Positions 13,106 to 13,860 of a DNA stretch of 45,575 nt are shown here, one piece after another. The first letter of the stretch is position 1. The number at the start of each line of letters is the position of its first letter. Location: contig CAIMSP010000006.1 in NCBI GenBank assembly GCA_903844215.1, positions 1 to 45,575 of the forward strand. The letters are read 5' to 3'. This DNA comes from an uncultured beta proteobacterium. GTDB taxonomy: Bacteria; Pseudomonadota; Gammaproteobacteria; Burkholderiales; Burkholderiaceae_C. The notes under the pieces are model-generated. The model did no database searches, was not told the DNA's origin, and saw nothing but the letters and a program-made list of their open reading frames with translations. The position numbers were made by a program, and so were the translations under genes.

Positions 13106-13860
13106 GGCGCGAGGTAGATCAGAAGCTTTTGGCTCAAGCGTTCAGCGGCTTCCTGCCAACTGACCGAAACGCCGATTGTAGAAAGATCCACGCTGCGCAA
13201 ACCCGCATAGCCGCAGGGGTTGATGCGCGAATAGGGCTCCAGATCCATGGCCACGTTCAGCGCCAAGCCGTGATAGGTGCAGTGGCGGCTGACCTTGATG
13301 CCCAGCGCGGCGATCTTGCCCAGGCCGGTGAAATCGAGGGGTGGACTTTTAATTGGGGTCAGATTCCAATTATCGACATTCGACGTGACGGGTTCATTTA
13401 ATTGGGTTCTGACCCCAATTGTTTGCTTCATCGGTCGCTGCGCCAGCGCCGCATGCGAGCCCGGGTCGTCCAAACGCACGTAGATGCCGGGGGCGCCGGC
13501 GACGCGGTGGCCGGTGACGTTGAAGTACGCCAGGGTCTTGATGACCGACTCTTCCAACCGGTACACGTACTCCTTCACGTAGTAGCCCGCGCGCTGCATG
13601 TCGATCAGCGGATAGGCCACGACCTGACCCGGTCCGTGGTAGGTCACTTGGCCGCCGCGGTTGCTCTGCACCACGGGAATGTCGCCGGGCAGCAGCAGAT
13701 GCGCGGCCTTGCCCGCGAGCCCCTGCGTGAACACCGGCGGGTGTTCGCAGATCCAGAGTTCGTCCGGGGTGGCGGGCGTGCGCGTTGCGGTGAAGTCCTG
13801 CATCGCTGCGGCGTTGGGCACATAGTCCACCCGGCCCAGATGATGCAGCGTGATCTCCAT
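13102..13860 (-). CDS. lipB: Octanoyltransferase LipB, carrying an in-frame repeat insertion
   Basis: 252 residues, versus 213 in E. coli. Transfers octanoyl from acyl carrier protein to lipoyl domains, the step before LipA. Conserved features are the RGGQVTYHGPGQ substrate loop, catalytic Lys182 in GLGKIAALG and catalytic Cys194 in RHCTYHG. Residues about 147-170 do not look like LipB; they are the translation of a 70-bp palindromic element (13351-13420) placed in the variable loop just before Lys182. All catalytic residues are kept and the frame is intact, so the enzyme is probably active. It overlaps lipA by 4 nt and lies 12 bp after the YbeD-like gene. Confidence 0.94.
   Translation of the reverse strand: MEITLHHLGRVDYVPNAAAMQDFTATRTPATPDELWICEHPPVFTQGLAGKAAHLLLPGDIPVVQSNRGGQVTYHGPGQVVAYPLIDMQRAGYYVKEYVYRLEESVIKTLAYFNVTGHRVAGAPGIYVRLDDPGSHAALAQRPMKQTIGVRTQLNEPVTSNVDNWNLTPIKSPPLDFTGLGKIAALGIKVSRHCTYHGLALNVAMDLEPYSRINPCGYAGLRSVDLSTIGVSVSWQEAAERLSQKLLIYLAP
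13351..13420. repeat. REP-like double palindrome inside lipB
   Basis: The left arm AATTGGGGTCAGA (13351-13363) and the right arm TCTGACCCCAATT (13408-13420) are perfect inverted copies. Extended to 22 nt each, the arms differ at two positions. Each arm is itself palindromic (AATTGG/CCAATT at 13351-13356 and 13366-13371; AATTGGG/CCCAATT at 13400-13406 and 13414-13420), so the unit looks like two REP sequences in opposite orientation. The GGGGTCAGA core resembles, from memory, palindromes associated with REP-type (RAYT/TnpA-REP) transposases. It is much poorer in GC than lipB around it. No second copy and no such transposase were seen in the window. Confidence 0.85.

Follow-up and report, generated by a model that had tools for sequence, protein, structure and literature searches.

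The locus raises the question of how a 70-base hairpin with inverted arms came to lie inside the reading frame of lipB, and what the gene has made of it. The hairpin occupies positions 13351-13420 of the window, i.e. the whole stretch of 45,575 nucleotides that was analysed, and its coordinates agree with those of the palindrome reported in the initial annotation. The palindromic arms described there are present but longer than had been stated, each measuring 21 bases. The first arm, AATTGGGGTCAGATTCCAATT, lies at 13351..13371 on the forward strand and is followed by a spacer of 28 bases (13372..13399) and by the inverted second arm at 13400..13420 on the reverse strand, in which 19 of 21 bases are the same as in the first. 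The 13-base arm end, AATTGGGGTCAGA, is found at 13351-13363 (+) and 13408-13420 (-), and the 21-base arm is itself partly self-complementary. The base composition is unlike that of the gene, as had been claimed, with a GC content of 0.429 for the element against 0.64 for the remainder of lipB; values this low are found in 303 of the 45505 70-base stretches of the window. Folding of the element strand gives -19.8 kcal/mol compared with a mean of -6.67 for shuffled sequences (z -6.57), and none of 200 shuffles equalled it.

The host gene (13102..13860, reverse strand) encodes an octanoyltransferase of 252 amino acids. The protein matches profile PF21948 (E 1.4e-27) and scores above the cut-offs of two of the five NCBIfam lipB models. 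Lys182 and Cys216, which we take to be the catalytic residues, are in place and are invariant in a 64-row alignment, and the profile match together with this active-site Lys and Cys assigns the protein to the LipB family. The element corresponds to codons 147-170, with the predicted translation TIGVRTQLNEPVTSNVDNWNLTPI; the frame is open, and the proposal that 24 residues are inserted in frame before Lys182 is borne out. These residues fall in the variable loop that leads from strand GIYV to Lys182 (residues 129-180; 13321..13476, reverse strand). That the insert sits in a variable loop is also correct: among 118 homologues that could be anchored, out of 120 close ones, the loop varies from 25 to 72 residues, and it measures about 5 residues in the solved LipB structure 1w66. 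The loop modelling suggested earlier was done with AlphaFold2 on 64 close homologues, but the model had a mean pLDDT of 63.4 with residues 150-172 under 50; no claim is built on it, and the loop comparison rests on the sequences of solved LipB proteins instead. All three forward and two of the three reverse frames of the arm are open. According to a rough estimate this is common for a 21-base sequence, so nothing is concluded about a special adaptation of the arm to translation.

A transposase gene in the same genome carries the same ends. The initial annotation had suggested looking for a RAYT/TnpA-REP gene, and a RAYT-like gene was indeed found between two arms like those in lipB (G000:C69). 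This gene has terminal inverted repeats whose 21-base core agrees with the first lipB arm at every base and with the second at all but two, and the repeat beside the gene reads TTAATTGGGGTCAGATTCCAATTA, which is the lipB arm plus flanks. The encoded protein matches Y1_Tnp above the cut-off and reaches 77.3 bits with NF047646 (REP_Tyr_transpos, NCBIfam), just under the cut-off of 80. Pfam revealed no second domain, Y1_Tnp being the sole match at E values up to 1. According to PMC6006769, a C-terminal helix-turn-helix domain marks transposase subclass 2.1, which takes in 20 of 26 TIRtron transposases. In 120 genomes of the bacterial family, the exact 13-mer is present in 49 and absent in 71 (reversed control in 2), and a RAYT relative was detected in 113 at an E value of 1e-30 or lower. 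The distance between the two was measured in the 23 arm-bearing genomes with full match lists, G110 and 25 others lying outside this sample. In 18 of the 23, own genome included, the best RAYT match has an exact arm at a distance of 250 bp or less; no arm lies by the best match in the other five (G008, G083, G022, G050 and G095). Of the 30 best RAYT loci, 27 by hand count have the end repeat GGGGTCAG on one side or both, and 16 have it as a matched pair; the three loci without it are L179, L185 and L197. A second RAYT-like gene of the own genome (G000:C148:22537-22863) has GAACCCCAAG repeats upstream and no lipB-type arm flanks in the stretch read.

Judged by its sequence features, the lipB hairpin is a pair of terminal inverted repeats of a TIRYT-type element and not a REP proper. 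The REP class was rejected because the GTAG tag is missing (by reading, the tetranucleotide is absent from 13351-13420) and because the arms are long terminal inverted repeats of the TIRYT type. Of the earlier term 'REP-like palindrome' the mobile type is retained and the class is not. REPIN or BIME doublets are inverted REP pairs with a spacer that are linked to RAYTs, non-autonomous and mainly extragenic. The lipB element is likewise a RAYT-linked, non-autonomous inverted pair with a spacer, but differs in its 21-base, partly self-complementary arm. It would behave like a REPIN-type non-autonomous doublet, presumably mobile, and it shows three sequence features of a TIRtron repeat. These are a Y1 (HUH) transposase gene with inverted repeats on either side, the GGGGWSAS motif (GGGGTCAG in the arm), and dispersion of the repeats in the genome, often as dimers. 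The TIRtrons of Di Nocera et al. 2013 (PMC3733652), as far as the accessible text describes them, have the same properties: a RAYT-like Y1 transposase, long terminal inverted GGGGWSAS repeats, and dispersed repeats including many dimers. However, that text describes no TIR repeats within genes, whereas here they occur in frame in nine gene kinds, and the names Acidovorax, Polaromonas and Delftia are absent from its main text.

Inserts of this kind are already known, since REPs lying in frame inside genes were reported in 2013. In the same accessible text (PMC3733652), palindromes of the GTAG/CGTC REP class are reported in frame in uvrA, dnaE2, truB and other genes of several bacteria, with dimers encoding 20-30 residues, and the paper raises the possibility that insertion is neutral in linkers or loops, which may tolerate them. 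The repeat class is different, and lipB, purL, purK and hslO do not appear among the genes that this text mentions. Translated palindromes are therefore not confined to Rickettsia, to which the initial annotation had mainly linked them. The Rickettsia elements are also mobile-type palindromes translated inside unrelated genes, but they are about 150 bp long and the part of PMC10969869 at hand mentions no transposase partner, while here a transposase gene has the same ends. The BRE elements are again short repeats, with Comamonadaceae among the hosts and some copies in coding sequences; a comparison of length and GC content with PMC3110155 sets about 90 bp and a mean of 69% in Bordetella against 70 bp and 43% for the lipB element. 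In the open-licence literature searched we found no report of the lipB-hairpin repeat family inside genes, nor a gene list with lipB, purL, purK and hslO, nor any account of different repeats making use of one and the same loop.

The absence of further arm copies had been named earlier as a reason to abandon the mobile-element reading. In the own genome there are 18 exact copies of the 13-base arm end, against 0 for the reversed control. Pairing by hand gave 12 sites, namely five short doublets, the pair around the RAYT gene and six single arms. Four of these sites lie within genes and in frame (lipB, purL, uvrA and a hydantoinase-like gene), one surrounds the transposase, and seven are intergenic or at gene ends, as judged by ORFs with coding-like third-position GC. 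Whether other copies leave the frame of their gene open had also been asked, and the ORFs of PurL (1450 aa), UvrA (1988 aa) and the hydantoinase-like protein indeed run through the element with no stop. The last, a hydantoinase/caprolactamase-like protein of 1271 aa, has kept one arm. At C20b, C162 and the RAYT site C69 the stop codon of the upstream gene overlaps the arm by two bases, and at C20a an ORF on the opposite strand extends about 29 bases into the element. Four non-genic copies (L164, L169, L163) begin at most 3 bases from a gene stop codon, and three of them share two bases with it.

A scan of public genomes for complete doublets gave 104 stretches with 108 elements. The record titles, available for 80 stretches, mostly name Comamonadaceae genera, Burkholderiales or beta-proteobacteria; the exceptions are three Alphaproteobacteria from one record set, one Gammaproteobacteria and one Proteobacteria. 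The commonest spacer length is 27 (39/108), and the 28 bases found in lipB occur in 9/108. A frame is open across 60 of the 108 elements by a spanning-ORF criterion of at least 40 and 35 codons, the other 48 being without such an ORF. For naming of the genes one member per cluster was family-scanned (two for hslO) and the remainder were placed by blastp. This put 47 elements in frame in named genes: uvrA (20), purL (12), hydantoinase-like (4), dnaE2, the error-prone DNA polymerase (3), purK (3), tsaC (2), hslO (2) and hrpA (1). Copies in truB (L098) and a dehydratase gene (L146) were excluded because the family match starts only after the insert, which may thus precede the real start. A spanning ORF is also present in eleven further elements, which were excluded because no named family could be assigned to both flanks; the family scan covered seven of them, L081 matching on one side only, and the other four are L065, L111, L119 and L148. 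With lipB included, there are 14 distinct in-gene sites in nine gene kinds, five of them in uvrA, and 10 of the 20 uvrA elements occupy the commonest uvrA site, the linker between the two UvrA halves. The left arm is translated as NWGQIPI, IGVRFQ or LGSDSN and the right arm as NWNLTPI or LESDPN, the third right frame containing TGA; the reading frame of the arm differs from gene to gene. Since an open frame was required for counting, the in-frame counts describe the copies and cannot themselves prove selection. Element lengths carry no frame signal, those in genes and outside genes overlapping.

Comparison of the LipB loops across species indicates repeated use of one spot. Under the stricter motif rules, the 118 anchored loops contain remnants of the lipB-hairpin repeat, more or less complete, in 33 cases and of a sister repeat, recognised by GSEP/GSDPN, in 30, with both in 4; three hold other repeats and 56 none. 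With looser rules a motif was recognised in 53 loops and none in the other 65. Insert carriers are favoured in this sample, the query itself having contained the insert. On a loop-free LipB tree the minimum number of changes is 16 for the lipB-hairpin repeat, 18 for the sister repeat and 34 for all states, although the tree is weak, with 18 of 113 inner branches starred. All four genus mates have the sister repeat at the same LipB spot. Its DNA has the GGGGTCAG core in three of them, and G004 keeps the right half only. The same residues in unrelated codons, which the initial annotation regarded as evidence against an insertion, were not encountered in the lipB genes of these genus mates. The alignment with relatives that it proposed shows the residues to be missing in P0013, a close relative whose LipB has 228 aa, 24 residues fewer, and a 29-residue loop with neither repeat. 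Several more distant LipB proteins share the insert motif at the protein level, and for that reason the lipB insert may be old. A clean pre-insertion sequence at the base level was not found. A further repeat type (PGSTRDP/PGSVRDP...) is present in the same loop of P0063 and P0039.

The other host proteins offer a similar comparison. UvrA (1988 aa, L161) is a tandem of two UvrA halves, with full-length matches in four genus mates, and its long linkers make a large target for inserts. The linker between the halves holds the doublet in 5/5 genus members, in one with altered arm bases. Remnants of varied completeness are seen in 31 of 90 anchored proteins, out of 120 listed, for a query that held the insert as the LipB query did. 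In the UvrA arms of five species, 9/9 codons for the same residue are unchanged compared with 684/1558 gene-wide (nominal P 0.0006); windows as codon-invariant as the arms number 9 of 1550, some being the arms themselves, and the pattern was noticed post hoc in one gene. Such frozen arm codons do not fit pure neutral decay, which would not predict them. For PurL, 119 genomes had a match, and of 90 loci examined 78 were anchored. Among these the doublet is present only in the own genome, G030 has a left arm, and G003 has a short remnant-like stretch; the other anchored loci have no arm core at this site. On visual inspection the G003 stretch looks like the worn remains of a right arm, and the site was therefore not called empty. 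At the hydantoinase-like site the five genus members grade from IGVRFQLSG at one end to IALRLQAAP at the other, and G003 shows synonymous changes; the series suggests decay.

In view of these observations we consider it highly probable that the lipB hairpin is an inverted pair of RAYT/TIRYT-like transposase ends, likely placed by the transposase and predicted to give LipB 24 extra loop residues. The lipB-type hairpins in general are likely non-autonomous transposase-end elements moved by the transposase. The transposase would mobilise the arms as a single strand and insertion would strike genes at large. Selection would remove copies that shift the frame or fall in a folded core, and hairpin turns and interdomain linkers would keep theirs. 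Substitutions and in-frame deletions would afterwards wear down the retained copies, and the loops would in this way come to record successive insertions. We infer that the lipB element is translated and neutral, and the inserted peptide is most likely functionless.

Other explanations need to be weighed against this one. Reuse of the same spots could reflect a target preference of the transposase and not tolerance by the protein. The flanks beside the arms are A/T-biased (216 ends; A at position -3 0.52, A or T at -1 0.79), and in the own genome several copies border on the stop codon of a gene or overlap it. Yet the outermost bases may belong to the repeat (TTAATT...AATTAA), the LipB and UvrA spots have no common motif by eye, and other repeat types occupy these spots too, which leaves a target preference unlikely but with some claim to attention. 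The inserts could also have been kept for a useful role of the peptide or hairpin in protein or mRNA. Exaptation of this kind would agree with one site being filled in many species, such as the UvrA linker in 5/5 genus members and purL in 12 public loci, although these purL doublets were picked by exact arms and are uninformative on decay, and with the codon-frozen UvrA arms. It is improbable in view of the LipB loop, where close relatives have other repeats or no repeat at all, the arm reading frame that varies by gene, and the worn look of the hydantoinase-like and PurL copies.

Removal or bypass of the hairpin at the level of RNA or translation, so that it never reaches the protein, would suit its strong fold, and translational bypassing elements exist elsewhere. 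However, all 47 counted gene copies have an open frame, needless for excision even if openness was the condition for counting; the region 12000-14500 has no Rfam match at the gathering threshold; and differences in the hydantoinase-like and LipB loops consist of codon changes and whole-codon gaps. We regard such removal as very improbable. An ordinary variable LipB loop with a chance resemblance, or an assembly artefact, can appeal to the variability in loop length and deserves hardly any credence. Chance is refuted by the genome-wide copies and the empty control, the base composition is unlike the remainder of lipB, and the LipB of P0001, encoded on a 6,882-base contig, has the same length and holds the insert with one loop residue changed.

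With the transposase-end reading, translated palindromes are linked to a recognisable transposase family that shares their ends. Protein loops have apparently grown and eroded as insertion followed insertion, a history that could be dated against species trees, and LipB and UvrA of this bacterial family would offer a direct test of new loop sequence entering core proteins. A further, rather speculative and improbable step is that core genes act as safe harbours: copies in loops of essential proteins would escape loss by frame-breaking deletion, their ends would stay intact as DNA, like the codon-frozen arms in UvrA, and the transposase would re-seed the genome from them. If so, being translated would be a lasting way of life for transposon ends, which would keep supplying proteins with new loops. 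Two other repeats were noticed in the own genome. The first half of its UvrA (L161:1213-7179) contains a different translated repeat, QPSPQASPGGRGSEYSEATQVPSQPPLPLAGEGRGEG, a similar one being present in the LipB loop of P0094, and at G000:C2:24474-24581 and C71:33378-33485 there is a longer hairpin, rich in GC and with TTGGGGTCAGA-like sequence at its ends, that seems to represent a second repeat family.
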